Assembly: GCF_025947185.1 (NCBI RefSeq) | Contig: NZ_CP110001.1 | Location: forward strand, 3,658,001-3,722,000 | From: Flavobacterium sp. N2038 | GTDB taxonomy: Bacteria > Bacteroidota > Bacteroidia > Flavobacteriales > Flavobacteriaceae | DNA: 64,000 nucleotides | Reading direction: 5' to 3' | Part shown: positions 34,112 through 47,020 of the stretch, in pieces | Layout: each line of letters begins with the position of its first letter | How positions within the stretch are numbered: position 1 is the first letter of the stretch | Position numbers and translations under genes: made by a program | Notes under the pieces: model-generated | Told to the model about the DNA's origin: nothing | The model's input: the letters and a program-made list of their open reading frames with translations, nothing else | Databases searched by the model: none

Positions 34112-36301
34112 TTATTTCGTAAACAATAATTCTCTGTATTTGGTCAATGTCCAACTTTCGTCGTCTACTAATAATTCTAATTTGTCACAGTGATTTCTAA
34201 TGTCTTCAAAATAAGGTTTTACTTTGTTACAATATGCTTCAGCCATTTTTAGAGCATCGGTTAACTGATTTGCTTTCTTTCTTTCTTCAGTCATTGCCAA
34301 TACTTTAGAATTTATTCCTTCGATATGACCAGAAATCTCTTTAATTAAAACGATTTGCTCTTTGGCAATAGTTTCGAATTCTTTTCCGAAAATTTCTTTT
34401 AATCCTTTAACGTTTTCAATCAAAGTATTTTGGTAACGAATTGCTGTTGGAATTACGTGGTTTCTTGCGATATCTCCTAAAACTCTTCCTTCAATCTGAA
34501 TTTTCTTAGTGTATTCTTCTAATTCTATTTCATAACGAGCTTCGGCTTCAACATGATTTAAAATTCCCATTTCACTAAACAAATCCAAAGCTTGTTTTGA
34601 CACTTTGGCCTTAATAGCTTCCGGAGTGGTTTTAAAATTACTTAAACCTCTTTTCTTTGCTTCTTTTTCCCAGGCTTCACTATATCCGTCACCTTCAAAA
34701 AGTATTTTCTTAGATTGCTTGATATATTCTCTTAAAACATTAAAAATCGCGTCGTCTTTTTTCATGTCTTTTGACTCGATCAAAGAATCAACTTCAATTT
34801 TAAAATCTTTTAATTGTTTTGCCACAATTGCATTTAAAGTTGTCATTGCATTTGAACAGTTTGCAGTTGAACCCACTGCTCTAAACTCAAATTTATTTCC
34901 TGTAAAGGCAAACGGCGAAGTTCTGTTTCTGTCTGTGTTATCTAAAAGTACATCCGGAATTTTACCAACAACATTTAGTTTTAGGTCTGTTTTTTCTTCA
35001 GGAGATAATTTTCCTGTTGTAACGCTTTCTAATTCTGATAAAACTTTCGTTAACTGTGCTCCAATAAAAACCGAGATAATTGCCGGCGGCGCTTCATTTG
35101 CTCCTAACCTGTGATCGTTGCTTGCTGTTGCGATAGAAGCTCTAAGCAAAGTTTCGTAATCGTTAACCGCTTTTATTGTATTGATAAAGAAAGTCAAAAA
35201 CTGTAAGTTGCTCATTGGTGTTTTACTAGGACTCAATAAGTTAACTCCGGTATCTGTAGCCAAAGACCAGTTATTATGTTTTCCTGAACCGTTTACTCCT
35301 TTAAATGGTTTTTCATGAAATAATACTTTAAAATCATGACGTTCTGCAACTCTCTGCATTACATCCATTAATAAAGAGTTATGGTCCACAGCCAAGTTTG
35401 TCTCTTCAAAAATAGGTGCCAGCTCAAACTGATTTGGTGCAACTTCATTATGACGTGTTTTTACAGGAATTCCCAAAAGCATACATTCCTGTTCTAAATC
35501 TCTCATATAAGTAAGAGCACGAGTCGGGATAGATCCAAAATAATGATCGTCTAGTTGTTGTCCTTTAGCAGAAGTATGTCCTAATAAAGTTCTTCCCGTC
35601 ATCATTAAATCCGGACGTGAATTTGCCAAAGCTTTATCTATAAGGAAATATTCCTGCTCCCATCCTAAAGTTGCAGTTACTTTTTTTACATTTTTATCAA
35701 AGTACTTACAAACTTCTGTCGCCGCTTCATCAATTGCAGATAATGCTCTTAATAAAGGTATTTTATTATCTAATGCTTCACCGGTATAAGCAATGAATAC
35801 AGTTGGAATACATAATGTTGTTCCGTAAATAAATGCCGGTGATGTTGGATCCCAGGCAGTATAACCTCTGGCTTCAAAAGTGTTTCTGATTCCTCCATTC
35901 GGAAAACTTGATGCATCTGGTTCTTGTTGTACCAATTGCGCTCCACCGAATTTCTCTACCGGATCGCTTCCATCATAAGACGTTTCGAAAAAAGCATCAT
36001 GTTTTTCTGCAGTTGTTCCTGTAAGTGGCTGAAACCAGTGCGTGTAATGTGTAACACCTTTGGCTAGAGCCCATTCTTTCATTCCCATGGCAATATAATC
36101 TGCCAGTTTTCTTTCTATTTTAGTTCCATGCTGAATGGCATCTCTTACTCCTTTTAATGCATCTGAAGTTAAATACTGCTTCATCGCTTTTTCGTTAAAC
36201 ACATTCGATCCGAAAATATTTGATTTTCGGTCAATTTCTTCAAAATGTACCGGTTTTCTGTTAGAAGCTTGTTGCAAAGCCTGGAAACGTAATGTTGACA
36301 T
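34112..36301 (-). CDS. glnN: Type III glutamine synthetase
   Basis: The 729-residue enzyme makes glutamine from glutamate, ammonia and ATP. Its length and N-terminus are those of GSIII (GlnN), the large form first known in Bacteroides and cyanobacteria. Visible motifs are LGWEQEYFLID, HNEVAPNQFELAP, FKGVNGSGKHNNWSL and NEAPPAIISVFIG. The C-terminal 150 residues form the helical GSIII-specific extension. It is divergent from the short GSII-like gene 428 bp away, so nitrogen control of both from the shared region is likely. Confidence 0.96.
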   Translation of the reverse strand: MSTLRFQALQQASNRKPVHFEEIDRKSNIFGSNVFNEKAMKQYLTSDALKGVRDAIQHGTKIERKLADYIAMGMKEWALAKGVTHYTHWFQPLTGTTAEKHDAFFETSYDGSDPVEKFGGAQLVQQEPDASSFPNGGIRNTFEARGYTAWDPTSPAFIYGTTLCIPTVFIAYTGEALDNKIPLLRALSAIDEAATEVCKYFDKNVKKVTATLGWEQEYFLIDKALANSRPDLMMTGRTLLGHTSAKGQQLDDHYFGSIPTRALTYMRDLEQECMLLGIPVKTRHNEVAPNQFELAPIFEETNLAVDHNSLLMDVMQRVAERHDFKVLFHEKPFKGVNGSGKHNNWSLATDTGVNLLSPSKTPMSNLQFLTFFINTIKAVNDYETLLRASIATASNDHRLGANEAPPAIISVFIGAQLTKVLSELESVTTGKLSPEEKTDLKLNVVGKIPDVLLDNTDRNRTSPFAFTGNKFEFRAVGSTANCSNAMTTLNAIVAKQLKDFKIEVDSLIESKDMKKDDAIFNVLREYIKQSKKILFEGDGYSEAWEKEAKKRGLSNFKTTPEAIKAKVSKQALDLFSEMGILNHVEAEARYEIELEEYTKKIQIEGRVLGDIARNHVIPTAIRYQNTLIENVKGLKEIFGKEFETIAKEQIVLIKEISGHIEGINSKVLAMTEERKKANQLTDALKMAEAYCNKVKPYFEDIRNHCDKLELLVDDESWTLTKYRELLFTK

Positions 36302-36729: not shown

Positions 36730-37746
36730 ATGGCTAAAATTAAGTTAGAGTACATTTGGTTAGATGGATATGAACCAACTCAAAATCTTAGAAGTAAAAC
36801 TAAAGTTGAAGAGCACGAAAATTTCAAAGGAACATTAGAAGAGCTTGGAAACTGGTCATTTGATGGTTCATCTACTAAACAAGCTGAAGGTGGTTCTTCT
36901 GACTGTCTTTTAGTTCCTGTTGCAATTTATCCGGATCCAACTCGTATCAATGGATGGTTGGTAATGTCTGAAGTTATGTATGCTGACGGAACTCCACACC
37001 CTTCTAATGGTAGAGCTACAATTGATGATGATAATGATGATTTTTGGTTTGGTTTCGAACAAGAGTATTTTATCATGGATACTAAAACTCAACTTCCACT
37101 TGGTTTCCCAGTTGGAGGATACCCTGCTCCACAAGGGATGTACTACTGTTCTGTAGGTGGAAAAAATACACACGGAAGAAAATTAGTTGAAGAGCATGCT
37201 GATTTATGTATCGCTGCAGGAATCAACTTTGAAGGAATCAACCAGGAGGTTGCTTGCGGACAATGGGAATTCCAATTATTTGCTAAAGGTGCTAAAAAAG
37301 CCGGAGACGAAATCTGGGTTGCTCGTTACCTATTAGATCGTTTGACTGAAAAATATGGTTACTATATTGAATATCACCCAAAACCTCTGGGAGATACAGA
37401 CTGGAATGGTTCTGGTATGCATGCTAACTTCTCTAACGAAGTATTAAGAACATGTGGAGATCAGGCAACTTACGAAAGAATTTGTGAAGCTTTCCGTCCT
37501 GTTACTGCTGAGCATATCGCGGTTTACGGAGCTTACAATGACCAACGTTTAACTGGTAAGCACGAAACTGCTTCTATTCACGATTTCTCTTATGGAGTTT
37601 CAGACAGAGGATGTTCTATCAGAATTCCTTTGATGACTGTTCAAAAAGGATGGAAAGGATGGTTGGAAGACAGAAGACCAGCTTCAAACGGAGATCCATA
37701 CAAAATTGCTGCAAGAATTATCAAAACTGTTAACTCAGCATTGTAA
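36730..37746 (+). CDS. Type II-like (eukaryotic-type) glutamine synthetase
   Basis: The 338-residue enzyme is much shorter than bacterial GSI (about 470) and matches the GSII/eukaryotic type: KLEYIWLDGYEPTQNLRSKT, NWSFDGSSTKQAEGG, FGFEQEYFIMD, GINQEVACGQWEFQ, GSGMHANFSN and SIRIP with the ATP-binding arginines. It supplies glutamine for biosynthesis. Being GSII it lacks the adenylylation loop of GSI, so control is more likely transcriptional or by feedback. Divergent from glnN. Confidence 0.93.
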   Translation: MAKIKLEYIWLDGYEPTQNLRSKTKVEEHENFKGTLEELGNWSFDGSSTKQAEGGSSDCLLVPVAIYPDPTRINGWLVMSEVMYADGTPHPSNGRATIDDDNDDFWFGFEQEYFIMDTKTQLPLGFPVGGYPAPQGMYYCSVGGKNTHGRKLVEEHADLCIAAGINFEGINQEVACGQWEFQLFAKGAKKAGDEIWVARYLLDRLTEKYGYYIEYHPKPLGDTDWNGSGMHANFSNEVLRTCGDQATYERICEAFRPVTAEHIAVYGAYNDQRLTGKHETASIHDFSYGVSDRGCSIRIPLMTVQKGWKGWLEDRRPASNGDPYKIAARIIKTVNSAL

Positions 37747-42492: not shown

Positions 42493-43365
42493 TTAGCTGA
42501 TAATAATTTTATGTTCCAGACGATATTGCGAAGCGCTTTTCCCAGTATATTGTTTAAAGGATTTACTAAAGTGACTGAAGTTATTAAAACCGCTTTCGTA
42601 GCAAACTTCATTAATACTTATTTGTTTTTCGGCCAAAAGTTTTGACGCGTGCACCAAACGATATTCATTTACAAACTCAGTAAAGGTTTTGTTTGAAATT
42701 TTCTTAAAATAACGGCAAAAAGACGGTGTAGTCATACTAACCAGACTCGACACTTCGTCTATAGCAATAGACTCCTGAAAATGATCTTTAACAAAATTAA
42801 AAACCACATTCATACGATCGCTATCCTGCGTTTGTAATTCCAAAGAAAATCCATCGGCATTTAAAACCGTGTATTCCTCAGAAGAATCTAATTCGTCTAA
42901 AATACTCAAGAGTGTCAGCAAACGTTCAAACGGAAGCTGATGTTCCATCATTTCGATTTTTTTGCCAATATGTTTTTTAGTTTCCCCATTAAAAGCAATT
43001 CCGGCTTTAGACTGACTAAGAATACGCTGCACCTTTCTCATTTCTGGAGCAACAAAAAAATCATTGCCCAAAAATTCCGGTTTAATATGAATAACAGTTT
43101 CACCTTTATTCCCTGTTTGTTCGTTTGTAAAACCACAATGCGGCAAATTGGAACCTATTAAAATCAAATCTCCATTGGTATAATAAGAAACGTGACTTCC
43201 TATTTGCCTCTTACCCGCGCCTCCGTTTATATAAACCAACTCAATTTCTGGATGATAATGCCATAAATGGGCTTTACTATTGGTTTTTTCGGCATGTTTG
43301 GTGTAGGTAAAAGAACTTCCGTATGAGTTTGATATCACTTCAAGAGCTGGGGCAATTGTCTTCAT
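42493..43365 (-). CDS. AraC-family transcriptional regulator (cupin sensor)
   Basis: The product is 290 residues from the ATG at 43365, after trimming 12 residues of a longer frame. An N-terminal cupin-like domain (HLWHYHPEIELVYINGG, GDLILIGSNLPHCGF) probably binds a small ligand. The C-terminal 100 residues are a double helix-turn-helix: IAIDEVSSLVSMTTPSFCRYFKK and ISINEVCYESGFNNFSHFSKSFK. Its upstream region carries one copy of a 34-bp element that also precedes three of the four small secreted-protein genes. It is therefore the prime candidate regulator of that cluster and possibly of itself. Confidence 0.9.
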   Translation of the reverse strand: MKTIAPALEVISNSYGSSFTYTKHAEKTNSKAHLWHYHPEIELVYINGGAGKRQIGSHVSYYTNGDLILIGSNLPHCGFTNEQTGNKGETVIHIKPEFLGNDFFVAPEMRKVQRILSQSKAGIAFNGETKKHIGKKIEMMEHQLPFERLLTLLSILDELDSSEEYTVLNADGFSLELQTQDSDRMNVVFNFVKDHFQESIAIDEVSSLVSMTTPSFCRYFKKISNKTFTEFVNEYRLVHASKLLAEKQISINEVCYESGFNNFSHFSKSFKQYTGKSASQYRLEHKIIIS

Positions 43366-43420
43366 GTTAATATCTTTAAAAAATAATAGCAAATTTAACA
43401 AAATCGCCTAAAATAATTCA

Positions 43421-43454
43421 AATTTTAACCTATAACGGTTTCGTAAATGAGAAT
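43421..43454. promoter_or_regulatory. Conserved 34-bp element, copy 1 (upstream of the AraC gene)
   Basis: Core AATTTTAACC-TATAACGGTTTCG-TAAATGAGAAT. Homology to copy 2 extends left to about 43374, close to the araC ATG at 43365. Here the element faces the divergent regulator gene; no secreted-protein gene follows directly. Confidence 0.8.
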
Positions 43455-43455
43455 T

Positions 43456-43633
43456 TTGCATAAAAAGCATCGTATACCTTTTTTAAATTATATCCAAAAT
43501 GGACATTTTTTTAACAACTCATTTTTTTACCCCTGTTTTTTTTTGCATATCGTATTTTTAATAGTCCAATTATGCAAATATGTTATTTGTGTAAGAAAAA
43601 TAGATTTTTTAACAAATTCAATTCTATACAAAA
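43456..43633. other. AT-rich spacer between element copies 1 and 2
   Basis: No gene, repeat or hairpin is visible in this 178-bp stretch, which is very AT-rich. It is part of the 447-bp gap between the AraC gene and the first paralogue. Confidence 0.4.
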
Positions 43634-43680
43634 CTTTAAAAAATAACAACCAAATTAACAAAAACACCTAAAATAATTTA

Positions 43681-43714
43681 AATTTTAACCTATAACGGTT
43701 TCGCAAATGAGAAT
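43681..43714 (+). promoter_or_regulatory. Conserved 34-bp element, copy 2
   Basis: Same core as copy 1 with one change (TCGCAAATGA). It starts 132 bp before the ATG at 43813 and 59 bp before the TTG box. Confidence 0.85.
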
Positions 43715-43739
43715 ACAGCATATAAATAAGAAAACTGAG

Positions 43740-43773
43740 TTGTACAAAAAAAGGAGTTATCAAAGTAATTTAG
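43740..43773 (+). promoter_or_regulatory. Promoter of secreted-protein paralogue 1
   Basis: TTG (43740-43742), a 23-bp spacer, then TAATTTAG (43766-43773) and a conserved CATCAGA. TAATTTAG is close to TAnnTTTG. The same layout recurs before paralogues 2 and 3. Confidence 0.75.
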
Positions 43774-43812
43774 CATCAGAAAAATGAACTAAAAATTTAA
43801 ACATACAGCATT

Positions 43813-44178
43813 ATGAAAAAGATTTTAAAATTAAGTTTAGTATGTGCGGTGCTTTTATCAGGTTTAAGTACTTATGCAATAGATGGAGATAACTCTTTTA
43901 ATTTTCACGTTTTAAAAACAAACGGAAAACAAATAACATTTGCAATGAATCAGGTACAAAAAGCAAGTATTAGTATTGTAGATAAGGATGGTAATTTAAT
44001 TTATACTGAGAATGCTTCTGGTAAGGACGGTATCCTTAGAACTTTTAGCTTAGAAGAATTTCCACAAGGAACTTACTTCTTAGAAATTGAAGACAACTTT
44101 AAAAAAGCAAGACACGAAATTACGGTTTCTGGTCAAACGACAAATTTGTCAACAAGAGCGATCTCTACTATTAAATAA
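43813..44178 (+). CDS. Small secreted protein, tandem paralogue 1
   Basis: This 121-residue protein has a signal peptide cut after STYA. The mature part is a single beta-sandwich-like domain (VLKTNGKQITFAMNQ, ASISIVDKDGNLIYTENASGKDG, LEEFPQGTYFLEIED). It looks like a minimal secretion-tail domain of the T9SS/Por or DUF3244 type, but has no separate passenger domain. Copies 1-3 share a near-identical signal peptide and the motif ASGKDGILR(T/S)FSLEEFP. Function unknown. Expression is expected to depend on the element at 43681. Confidence 0.85.
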   Translation: MKKILKLSLVCAVLLSGLSTYAIDGDNSFNFHVLKTNGKQITFAMNQVQKASISIVDKDGNLIYTENASGKDGILRTFSLEEFPQGTYFLEIEDNFKKARHEITVSGQTTNLSTRAISTIK

Positions 44179-44288
44179 ACAAATTGTTGCAATAAAATAT
44201 AAGTGTACTCAAACACTATAAAAGTTTATACTCTCATACAGTATAAAAATGAGGTTAAATAGTTAGTAAAGTAAAAAACGTAAGTTTT

Positions 44289-44326
44289 AAAAACAGCTCT
44301 TTGTGGTTATTGGGCTGTTTTTTTTG
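44289..44326 (+). terminator. Terminator of paralogue 1
   Basis: AAAACAGC pairs with GCTGTTTT, followed by T's. A nearly identical hairpin follows paralogues 2 and 3. Confidence 0.85.
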
Positions 44327-44462
44327 TGCTTTACTTTTATACAAACTTAGCAGATAAAATCGACCTTCATTTTCAAACAATTCCCCTCTTCAATGTAAAC
44401 TTAAAAACAATAAAACTTTAAATAAAAAACACTGAATTAACAAAATAGATAAATATAATTCA

Positions 44463-44496
44463 AATTTTAACCTACAACGGTTTCGTAAATGAGAAT
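44463..44496 (+). promoter_or_regulatory. Conserved 34-bp element, copy 3
   Basis: Core with one change (CCTACAACGG). It starts 132 bp before the ATG at 44595, exactly as copies 2 and 4 do for their genes. Confidence 0.85.
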
Positions 44497-44521
44497 ACAG
44501 CATCGAAATCAGAAAATAGAG

Positions 44522-44555
44522 TTGTGCATTTACCTATTTATCATAACTAATTTAG
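44522..44555 (+). promoter_or_regulatory. Promoter of paralogue 2
   Basis: TTG (44522-44524), N23, TAATTTAG (44548-44555), then CATCAGAGAATTA. Same distance to element and gene as for paralogue 1. Confidence 0.75.
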
Positions 44556-44594
44556 CATCAGAGAATTAGAACTATTAATTTAAAAACTAATGCT

Positions 44595-44999
44595 ATGAAA
44601 AAGATTTTAAAATTAAGTTTAGTATGTGCAGTGCTTTTATCAGGTTTAAGTACTTATGCAATTGGTGATAATGGAGATTTTAATCTTCATGTAATTAAAA
44701 GTAACGGGAAGCTAATTACGTTTGCAATTAACAAAGTAACAAAAGCCAGCCTGGCAATTTACGACAAAGATGGTACTCTAATTTATTCTGAAAGCGCTTC
44801 AGGAAAAGATGGGATTTTGAGAACTTTCAGTCTGGAAGAATTTCCTGCGGGAACGTATTATCTGGAAGCTGAAGATAATGTAAAAAAAGTGAGACACGAA
44901 ATTACAATTACCGATGAGCAAACCACTTTATCATCAAAAGCAATTTCGTCTGTCTATAAAACTGAATTCGCAAAAAATAAAAGTGTAGCATCGCGCTAA
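44595..44999 (+). CDS. Small secreted protein, tandem paralogue 2
   Basis: The 134-residue paralogue has a signal peptide differing from copy 1 only near the cleavage site (MKKILKLSLVCAVLLSGLST in both). The core motif ASGKDGILRTFSLEEFP is identical, while the mature N-terminus (GDNGDFNLHVIKSNGK) diverges. A basic tail ends KNKSVASR, absent from copy 1. The gap before it (44179-44594, 416 bp) holds only the terminator of copy 1 and the control region of this gene. Confidence 0.85.
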   Translation: MKKILKLSLVCAVLLSGLSTYAIGDNGDFNLHVIKSNGKLITFAINKVTKASLAIYDKDGTLIYSESASGKDGILRTFSLEEFPAGTYYLEAEDNVKKVRHEITITDEQTTLSSKAISSVYKTEFAKNKSVASR

Positions 45000-45028
45000 A
45001 AGTTATACTGAAAAATAAAATTTATTAT

Positions 45029-45072
45029 TTTAAGAAACAGCTCTTTTATAGTATTGAGCTGTTTTTTTTTTG
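45029..45072 (+). terminator. Terminator of paralogue 2
   Basis: AAACAGCTC (45035-45043) with GAGCTGTTT (45056-45064), then T's. Confidence 0.85.
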
Positions 45073-45219
45073 CCCTTTACTTTTTGATAAACCCAGCTTT
45101 ACAAAACCTTATAAATCAATTAGAAAAATTAGAAAAAAGTTACTAAATCGTAAAATTAAGCACTTTTAAAAACGTTGAAAAATAATAATCAAATTAACTA
45201 AAACGCTTAAAATAATTCA

Positions 45220-45253
45220 AATTTTAACCTATAACGCTTTCGTAAATGAGAAT
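45220..45253 (+). promoter_or_regulatory. Conserved 34-bp element, copy 4
   Basis: Core with one change (ATAACGCTTTCG). It starts 132 bp before the ATG at 45352. Confidence 0.85.
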
Positions 45254-45278
45254 ACAGCATATAAATAGGCAAATACAG

Positions 45279-45312
45279 TTGTTAAAATAACACACAAACC
45301 AGAGTAATTTAG
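45279..45312 (+). promoter_or_regulatory. Promoter of paralogue 3
   Basis: TTG (45279-45281), N23, TAATTTAG (45305-45312), then CCTCAGAGAATTA. Confidence 0.75.
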
Positions 45313-45351
45313 CCTCAGAGAATTAAACTAATAATTTAAAAACTAACAGTT

Positions 45352-45762
45352 ATGAAAAAGATTTTAAAATTGAGTTTAGTATGCGCAGTACTTTTTACAG
45401 GAATCAGCAGTTACGCGATTGATGGAAAAATTGATGACTTAAATCTTCATGTATTGAAAGGAAACGGAAAACTGATTACGTTCGCGCTTAATCAGACCAA
45501 AAAAGCCAGCCTTTCTATTTATGATAAGCAGGGAAATTTAATTTACTCTGAAAATGCTTCAGGTAAAGACGGAATATTAAGATCTTTTAGTTTAGAGGAA
45601 TTTCCGGAAGGAATTTATTTCCTGGAAATTGAAGACAGTACAAAAAAAGTAAGATATGAAATTACTATAAATGACGAAACTTCTGTTTTATCATCAAAAG
45701 CAGTTTCATCAGTTTATAAAGCAGGATTTTCTGCTAAAAATACTAGTGTAGCAGTACGCTAA
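45352..45762 (+). CDS. Small secreted protein, tandem paralogue 3
   Basis: The 136-residue paralogue has a signal peptide ending SSYA. The mature domain is as in copies 1 and 2: LHVLKGNGKLITFALNQ, ASGKDGILRSFSLEEFP, GIYFLEIEDSTKK. The tail KNTSVAVR parallels copy 2, so copies 2 and 3 are probably the closest pair. Its gap from copy 2 (352 bp) holds the terminator, AT-rich DNA, the 34-bp element and the promoter, and nothing else. Confidence 0.85.
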   Translation: MKKILKLSLVCAVLFTGISSYAIDGKIDDLNLHVLKGNGKLITFALNQTKKASLSIYDKQGNLIYSENASGKDGILRSFSLEEFPEGIYFLEIEDSTKKVRYEITINDETSVLSSKAVSSVYKAGFSAKNTSVAVR

Positions 45763-45826
45763 AAAAGTTATACTTTTCATAAGAGTATAAGGTTAGATAG
45801 TTAGTAAAGTAAAAACGTGATTGTTT

Positions 45827-45866
45827 TAAAAACAGCTCTTTGTGGTTATTGAGCTGTTTTTTTTTG
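45827..45866 (+). terminator. Terminator of paralogue 3
   Basis: AAAAACAGCTC (45828-45838) with GAGCTGTTTTT (45851-45861), then T's. Loop and flanks closely match the terminator of paralogue 1. Confidence 0.85.
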
Positions 45867-45986
45867 CTTTATACTGAACAAAAAAAGATGCAAAAAAGAT
45901 TTTCACAAAACTATTCTTAATAAATACATCTGACTGATTTTTATTGCATTAAAAAAACAATAAAAAATAAATCCGTAAGCCCCGTA

Positions 45987-46005
45987 TTTACGTACATAAC
46001 GTAAA
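45987..46005 (+). promoter_or_regulatory. Operator-like dyad upstream of paralogue 4
   Basis: A perfect 7-bp inverted repeat TTTACGT-ACATA-ACGTAAA. It lies in the 370-bp gap before paralogue 4, which lacks the 34-bp element. Its role is a guess. Confidence 0.35.
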
Positions 46006-46132
46006 CAAAATACCGAAATAGTTTTAATTCAGCATTTTAACACTCTAAAAAAGTGACTTTTTTGCATAAAATTAATTTTGTATTTGTAGTTTTGAAACGT
46101 TCCACATTTAGTAATAAACATTTAAAAAAAAC

Positions 46133-46510
46133 ATGACAAAATTTACCAAGACCGGGTTAGTTGCTGCCTTTTTTTTAGCGACATTATTTACCTATGCCAT
46201 TGATGGAAAAGGGGATTATATTTTAAATATAAAAACCGGAAACGGAAAAGTTGAAAGCTTCGCAGTAGACAATTCTTCTTTTTCAATCTACGATCAAAAT
46301 CACAATTTACTTTATGCGGGAGATTCTGCAGCAAACAAACTAGAAATTTCAAAAACAATAAGTCTGGAGGATTTACCTGCCGGAACTTACGTTTTGGAGG
46401 TTAAAGCAAATGAAAAAATTGCGAAACACGAAATTAAAGTTGCTGCCAAAAAAGTAAAGACAGTAAAGCTTGACGAAAGTGTAAACCAAAGTCCTTCTTT
46501 CCGTCGCTAA
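46133..46510 (+). CDS. Small secreted protein, diverged paralogue 4
   Basis: The 125-residue protein has a signal peptide ending FTYA and the same one-domain layout (LNIKTGNGKVESFAVDN, SIYDQNHNLLYAGDS, SLEDLPAGTYVLEVKAN). It has lost the ASGKDGILR motif and is clearly more distant than copies 1-3. Neither the 34-bp element nor the TTG-N23-TAATTTAG promoter precedes it, so its control differs. The tail is lysine-rich and ends SFRR. Confidence 0.8.
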   Translation: MTKFTKTGLVAAFFLATLFTYAIDGKGDYILNIKTGNGKVESFAVDNSSFSIYDQNHNLLYAGDSAANKLEISKTISLEDLPAGTYVLEVKANEKIAKHEIKVAAKKVKTVKLDESVNQSPSFRR

Positions 46511-46540
46511 CCTCCTTTTTTGCCCCCAAAAAAAAAGATT

Positions 46541-46575
46541 AAAAAGCAGCTCGTTCCAGGAGCTGCTTTTTTTTT
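46541..46575. terminator. Bidirectional terminator
   Basis: AAAAGCAGCTC (46542-46552) pairs with GAGCTGCTTTT (46560-46570). It lies between converging genes and overlaps the end of the minus-strand gene. Confidence 0.85.
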
Positions 46576-47020
46576 AATTGATTTCTTCTCTTAAAACAGT
46601 ACCCATTTTTACCATTTGCCAAAAGAGATCTGTTTCTGATGGAATTATAATCTTTTGAGATTCCCTGTAAACAGATGAATGCATAAAAGCATTTATATAA
46701 TCCAGAAAATCAAGCAGTCTGAAACTTTGTCTGTATTCTGACCGTATTTCCTGGCTGTTTGCAAAGCAAACGTTTCCACTCTCTTTCTCGTCCAGAAATA
46801 CCAAACCGGAAGACTTTGCAAACAGGTTTACAATTTCGATATTTATTGAAGTTATTATATCGTTTGATCTATCAAAAAATGTATTTAGAGTAAAACCAGT
46901 TTCTGTAGTATTTTGAGAAATTTTCAAAACAAGATTTTCCAATTCGGCTCGGGAAGAATCTACTCTGTCATACTGTAGATGCAAATCTTTTATCCAATTG
47001 AGATAATATTCCGTTGTCAT
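46574..47020 (-). CDS. Protein of unknown function
   Basis: This 148-residue cytoplasmic protein starts from the ATG at 47020 (MTTEYYLNWIKDLHLQYDRV); a TTG two codons upstream is less likely. It looks mainly helical, with no membrane segment. No family recognised and no operon partner. Confidence 0.62.
   Translation of the reverse strand: MTTEYYLNWIKDLHLQYDRVDSSRAELENLVLKISQNTTETGFTLNTFFDRSNDIITSINIEIVNLFAKSSGLVFLDEKESGNVCFANSQEIRSEYRQSFRLLDFLDYINAFMHSSVYRESQKIIIPSETDLFWQMVKMGTVLREEIN

Follow-up and report, generated by a model that had tools for sequence, protein, structure and literature searches.

In the araC-araBAD system of Escherichia coli, as laid out in the portion of the account drawn on here (PMC4760080), a local regulator of the AraC family has paired operator parts near its target promoter and a further regulator site. 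We describe a locus of similar arrangement in a stretch of 64,000 nucleotides from Flavobacterium sp. N2038 (contig NZ_CP110001.1, positions 3,658,001 to 3,722,000; henceforth the window, in whose coordinates positions are given), part of a 4.67-Mb genome in one contig. In it, an araC-family gene stands divergently beside tandem genes for small secreted proteins, and a shared DNA core recurs in front of them. The locus differs from araC-araBAD in that the regulator and targets are other ones, the target is a secreted protein with an immunoglobulin (Ig)-like domain, and the whole operator-gene unit is amplified; moreover, direct repeats and looping are only candidate features here. The exported proteins also have described relatives, from which they depart in turn. 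They share only 10-20% identity with the DUF3244 structures 3d33, 3sd2 and 4g5a, and, unlike the type A C-terminal domains of the type IX secretion system (T9SS; RgpB, 7pq4, and the NucA complex, 8glk), they have no cargo domain ahead of them; in three of the window genes (genes 1-3 below) the domain precedes a tail and is not itself C-terminal. In Bacteroides thetaiotaomicron, DUF3244 genes (BT2221, BT3221-23) stand in iron-response tables, which list no function for them (PMC10434189, in the part cited). Among literature titles and abstract openings, we found nothing on Flavobacterium that deals with the araC/secreted-gene pair, with its operator or with looping.

We read the locus as a dedicated regulon in which an AraC-type activator would control an exported Ig domain resembling both DUF3244 and the T9SS tail, and which would have been amplified in the Flavobacterium johnsoniae group; from the sequence comparisons that follow, we put the probability of this reading at about 0.8. 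The proposed activator and autoregulator is a protein of 290 residues (42493..43365, minus strand; Pfam HTH_18, E=6e-20). Its C-terminal double helix-turn-helix matches PF12833 at 71.8 bits (cut-off 33.6), and a Cupin_2 match (24.3 bits, E 2.6e-5) falls under the cut-off of 27.2; an N-terminal cupin-like ligand domain is not found in every AraC/XylS member. On the plus strand follow gene 1 (43813..44178, 121 residues), gene 2 (44595..44999, 134 residues) and gene 3 (45352..45762, 136 residues), all coding for secreted Ig-like proteins. An earlier note, made from the letters of this DNA, had described three genes sharing a 34-bp core at an exact distance. Indeed, AATTTTAACC starts 132 bp upstream of the ATG in all three (at 43681, 44463 and 45220), and the description of three genes was accurate as far as it went; it missed a fourth core, without a gene of its own, that starts at 43421 beside the divergent araC gene, and it mentioned neither this araC gene nor a diverged fourth paralogue (gene 4 below). 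Likewise, the 34-bp element is present, and the conserved stretch extends beyond it, the core being part of an operator of about 55 bp.

This operator has two parts, module A (TTAACCTATAACGGTTTCG) and module B (about GAGAATACAGCATnnAAATnnGAAAA). Module A lies at 43685..43703, 44467..44485 and 45224..45242 and module B at 43709..43735, 44491..44517 and 45248..45274 for genes 1, 2 and 3 (all plus strand), with module B of gene 1 starting 57 bp upstream of the -7 box. The core beside araC, which we call the lead copy, retains module A (43425..43443, no strand assigned) and adjoins a predicted araC -7 box, located by reading the sequence (TAAATTTG, 43390..43397, minus strand). The promoter pattern previously proposed, TTG-N23-TAATTTAG, recurs at all three genes, with TTG at 43740, 44522 and 45279 and the -7 box at 43766..43773, 44548..44555 and 45305..45312 (plus strand); the box of gene 1 differs by one base from TANNTTTG. 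The -7 consensus given for F. johnsoniae in the cited part of PMC6847099 is TAHHTTTG, 4 or 5 nt upstream of the start. If the -7 box starts at -12, TTG lies at about -38, and it may thus belong to the operator instead of being a -33 element. Alike terminators do follow each gene, as similar hairpins with T runs on folding (44289..44322, -13.3 kcal/mol; 45032..45067, -14.3 kcal/mol; 45828..45861, -14.2 kcal/mol; all plus strand); a simple terminator scan, restricted to loops of 3-8, did not list them.

Units 1-3 are not equally conserved along their length. Compared unit with unit, identity reaches 95% in the core and 93-100% in the -7 region, while the N23 spacer is at 35-57%, the 60 bp upstream of the core at 62-77%, DNA farther upstream at 56-64% and mature coding DNA at 67-75%. 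The neighbouring DNA is therefore not conserved to the same degree, contrary to the equal conservation that the earlier note had named as refuting its reading, and the element stands out from its surroundings. As stated earlier, the mature proteins vary more than the signal peptide and the ASGKDGILR motif (mean conservation 7.3 compared to 8.0 and 8.7 on a 0-9 scale). We considered that the shared element might reflect recent duplication or gene conversion alone, the element itself being under no selection. Genes 1 and 2 are 98% identical over their first 66 coding nucleotides (43813-43878 and 44595-44660) and 67% over the rest, a pattern suggestive of gene conversion or of selection on the DNA of the signal peptide, and conversion there would fit such copying. 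However, the comparison of synonymous divergence (dS) proposed in the earlier note gave 1.49-1.76 among the window paralogues (nonsynonymous divergence 0.17-0.21), compared to 0.21-0.29 with F. branchiicola, the closest named locus (95% identical to gene 2). The duplications are thus old, and recent copying does not explain the conservation of the core. Moreover, in a tree of 199 proteins from the named loci described below, the nearest neighbour lies in another locus for 195 and in the same locus for only 4, and conservation of the element extends across species and, for module B, across genera. We give almost no credence to copying alone. (The tree left out five of the first 200 proteins, namely four short frames, three of them from lead copies, and one without a stop inside its locus; seven gene copies recognised late are not in it.) We also thought it very improbable that the core works as RNA, as a leader or riboswitch. 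It does lie near the predicted transcript start, but it is upstream of the predicted -7 box, and no Rfam family reaches its cut-off over the core: a scan of 43000-46700 gave nothing at cut-off and three weak rows, none covering the core.

To the earlier proposal of searching related genomes for the core and its promoter spacing, the answer is a nearly invariant geometry. We collected 76 distinct named Flavobacterium or Flavobacteriaceae loci, from the best 80 of 100 matches, two of them from one strain, CF136 (L091, L118). They hold 276 cores at up to 9 mismatches and 273 at up to 7; the three rows with 9 mismatches were dropped. The corrected split is 204 gene-linked and 69 lead copies. A first split (200 and 73), on which the conservation profiles and module scores below rest, was wrong for 10 rows: three moved from gene to lead (L082, L091 and L092, with spacings of 250, 412 and 260) and seven from lead to gene, with a -7 box at +83 in six and at +82 in one (L070). 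Of the 204 gene-linked copies, 203 have the start of the -7 box 83 bp after TTTTAACC and one has it 82 bp after, while the distance to the ATG varies. In gene-linked copies, the sequence is almost invariant from TTAACC to GAGAATA, a second conserved run extends to about +60, and conservation fades upstream of about -55. Module A has no more than one mismatch in 198/200 gene-linked copies, and the exact 28-mer is found in 145/200. The -7 box reads TAATTTAG in 135/200 and TAATTTTA in 40/200. When the best -7 box was chosen for each of the first-counted gene copies, it lay 57 bp from module B in 185/200 and 46 bp from it in 13. Three paralogues unlinked to araC, two on other contigs (L025, L027) and one 2.1 Mb from araC (L026), also have module B with a -7-like box 57 bp away, an arrangement that favours a diffusible factor. 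At one locus (L065, near base 2207), the operator-linked frame has only 33 residues, and this copy may be broken or misassembled.

The lead copies differ from the gene-linked copies in one module. Module A is free of mismatches in 52/66 leads, as in 146/200 gene copies, but the median module B score is -15 in 66 leads compared to 29 in gene copies, and a -7-like octamer at +83 is present in 3/64 leads compared to 197/200 gene copies. The recount sharpens this contrast, since the three rows moved to the leads scored low and the seven moved to the genes have module B scores of 23.9-31.8. Conversely, the araC -7 box CAAATTTA is nearly invariant in 61 leads and mostly lost or changed in gene-linked copies. 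Leads thus keep A and not B, such that A is associated with both promoters and B with that of the gene. A single shared operator is found in ancestral-looking loci (for example L149, L150, L151 and L153), and in two others (L152, L154) the lead retains a decayed promoter-like stretch, from which we infer that the lead copy probably arose through loss of a first gene.

We also considered whether the lead copy and the operator of gene 1 could form a DNA loop, as araO2 and araI1 do in E. coli. In 59 of the 69 leads, their cores are 261-263 bp apart (about 25 turns), three exceptions are about one turn shorter (250-251 bp), and the length varies far less than that of 73 control intergenic stretches (164 to 1045; 55 bases trimmed, gaps under 100 omitted). 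However, the distance is 260 in the window, 278, 382, 389 and 412 in other named loci and, judging from coordinates, 382-1013 in six further genomes with araC at 80-82%. Furthermore, the spacer contains conserved T-tract blocks and is 60% identical without gaps, compared to 33% when shuffled; embedded elements could therefore fix its length. A loop is a somewhat unlikely account of the constant spacing. The spacer in the window (43454-43680), like its counterparts in the named loci, carries T tracts and a ATATCGTATTTAA-like block at fixed positions, and in the window it has no Rfam match.

The regulator gene and the secreted gene go together within the genus. The distance from araC to the first core is 57-61 bp in 72 of the 76 named loci; the remaining four have no more than 260 bases of sequence ahead of that core. 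An araC orthologue (E<1e-100) is found in 91 of 249 genus genomes, the next matches being at about 1e-61. Among 61 genus genomes searched for both genes, 24 have the secreted gene, and the araC orthologue accompanies it in 23; the 37 without the secreted gene have no orthologue either. The one exception (G044) has, near a contig end, the first 74 residues of araC at 73% identity. At the level of the operator, at least three module A matches (up to 2 mismatches, genome-wide) occur in 46 of the 49 genomes whose araC is at least 80% identical, compared to 0/200 others; single matches in genomes without araC appear, by eye, about as frequent as control matches. Finally, we read 48 orthologue loci, the more divergent of the 91, and found the divergent pair of araC and secreted gene in all 48. 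The intergenic region is shorter than 205 bp in 42 of these; the other six (more than 204 bp) were left out of the set of 42 Flavobacterium loci used to train an operator matrix. In 36 of the 42, module B and the best araC -7 box are 59 bp apart. At least two of the divergent loci (L149, L152) are probably the same records as two of the named loci (L086, L091), and thus the two sets are not independent. Allowing for this overlap and for the recount leaves our estimate for the regulon unaltered.

The pair extends beyond the genus. Of 296 genomes of the order, 62 have an araC orthologue (E<=1e-80), and these belong to three families and to 20 of the 90 genera covered. We read 24 loci of other genera, 20 of the 62 plus four more, none from the genus of the window. 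A divergent gene for a small secreted protein is present in 23 of them, found by tblastn (E<=0.01) in 16 and by reading alone in seven; in five loci (L239, L241, L243, L248, L251), the first long frame is 285-686 bp from araC, and a short or lost frame may intervene. The sole locus read from the third family (L253) has neither partner gene nor module B site (p 0.85), and thus the pair is seen in two families. The partners usually have about 195 residues and two tail-like domains, and some have one. The Flavobacterium-trained module B matrix finds a site at p<=0.05 (200 Markov shuffles per locus) in 22 of the 24 loci; the best -7 box follows module B at 57 bp in 22 of 24, at 58 bp in one and at 54 bp in L253. 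Across genera, the identity of the exported protein is about 23-35%, where tblastn finds it, compared to 49-66% for the regulator.

We considered that the core might instead be bound by some other, widely used factor or be tied to an alternative sigma factor, with araC a mere neighbour. In the window's species group, most -7 boxes differ from the sigma-A consensus by one base, as such a reading might have it, and binding by the araC product is a prediction. But a 31-mer of the operator (up to 3 mismatches) has only four sites in the 4.67-Mb genome, all at this locus, compared to none for a reversed control, and the module B pattern, likewise at up to 3 mismatches, has three perfect matches here and two elsewhere, each at 3 mismatches (three for the control). 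An operator at one locus only does not fit a global factor. Moreover, araC and the secreted gene co-occur in the genus and remain paired across genera, and the -7 boxes of other genera match the consensus. Thus, we regard an unrelated factor as clearly unlikely.

Several results nonetheless weigh against a dedicated AraC-type regulon, or blur its outlines. Co-occurrence and co-conservation are confounded by shared ancestry, and tblastn linked no window protein to the partner in 7 of the 23 other-genus pairs. Searches of the operator for direct repeats and dyads gave weak AT-rich inverted signals and no clean direct repeat of the AraC type. Nor is the -7 box always off consensus: 23 of the 42 single-operator Flavobacterium loci have the consensus T as its seventh base, and the box is the full TANNTTTG in 23 of 24 other-genus loci. 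The 57-bp figure was obtained from the best box within a 25-bp range and is partly a product of that selection, while the check at the fixed offset of +83 is free of it. Outside Flavobacterium, one locus (L238) does not reach the threshold for module B (p 0.095), the best araC -7 box is at no constant distance from module B in 23 loci (92, 59, 93, 38 and others), and module A is, by eye, unrecognisable; its autoregulatory role is therefore a guess.

If the regulon is as we propose, the core would be the middle of a two-part operator for the adjacent AraC-family protein. Upon a cue, the regulator would bind module B (about -69 to -43) and recruit polymerase to the -7 box, mostly one base off consensus in this species group; module A, which adjoins the araC promoter, would probably also serve autoregulation. 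In the ancestral state, one operator would have been shared by araC and one secreted-protein gene. Tandem duplication of the operator-promoter-gene-terminator unit in the F. johnsoniae group would then have let one regulator drive several exported proteins in parallel, which may raise or diversify output, and the araC-proximal copy would later have been specialised for araC. The earlier suggestion of an activator-controlled secreted family grown by in-place duplication is supported by these comparisons, with activation itself a step that we infer; to that suggestion they add a likely activator, the two parts of the operator and the occurrence in other genera.

The secreted proteins sit between two families. 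Gene 1 matches both DUF3244 (27.9 bits, cut-off 25) and Por_Secre_tail (27.3, cut-off 27), and gene 3 matches Por_Secre_tail (31.2 bits, cut-off 27). For DUF3244, genes 2 and 3 fall just below the cut-off (22.2 and 23.4) and gene 4 has no row; for TIGR04183 (cut-off 23), genes 1, 3 and 4 reach 24.1, 28.4 and 28.5 bits, while gene 2 stays below (20.7). A structure model of gene 2 (pLDDT 73, moderate confidence) predicts an Ig-like beta-sandwich as in solved DUF3244 members, in a fold comparison made by VIA-align alone; a sequence search of the PDB yielded no convincing relative. Genes 1-3 do not have the layout of T9SS type A cargo, as each encodes a single domain and a C-terminal tail, with no cargo.

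A fourth gene (46133..46510, plus strand), a diverged paralogue with 43% identity to gene 2, has a consensus -7 box (TAGTTTTG) and no operator. In the 70 named loci holding gene 4, no module B score before it rises above background, and gene 4 is probably outside the regulon. Also without an operator is a further family member (L007, at 3013768 of the same genome), which belongs to the gene-4 type.

Second sites resembling module A were seen in at least 12 loci among the matches listed (L197-L208), one of them inside a coding sequence; we did not count them as regulon members because, by eye, they have no module B. In seven related genomes (L197-L202 and L208, near base 2000), a conserved TTAACATAAAACGGTTTCG lies about 80-100 bp upstream of a gene pair that we take to be TetR-like and TolC-like. 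Four others (L204-L207, near base 2000) carry a conserved TTAACTTATAACGTTTTCG between two genes, presumably PorP-like and pgk-like. Elsewhere in the window are two divergent genes (34112-36301, minus strand, and 36730-37746, plus strand), which we take to resemble glutamine synthetases of two types.

We tentatively consider a broader history possible: that this is a regulon undescribed as far as our searches go, present in at least two families, in which one AraC-type orthologue per genome would control a fast-diverging, cargo-less pair of tail-like domains. In the F. johnsoniae group, the C-terminal tail-like domain would have disappeared and the remainder been amplified, such that a protein possibly exported by the T9SS gave rise to a family of Ig modules that are periplasmic or otherwise exported, and the araC-proximal operator would have become a separate autoregulatory site. 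The kind of regulation is known; the target and the breadth are unusual. A regulator for which we found no paper gains a precise predicted operator, a promoter geometry and a target set across genera and two families. The module lost from the lead copy amounts to a natural dissection of an operator, and the divergence of the exported protein, which far exceeds that of the regulator or of the operator spacing, raises the question of what this module contacts.

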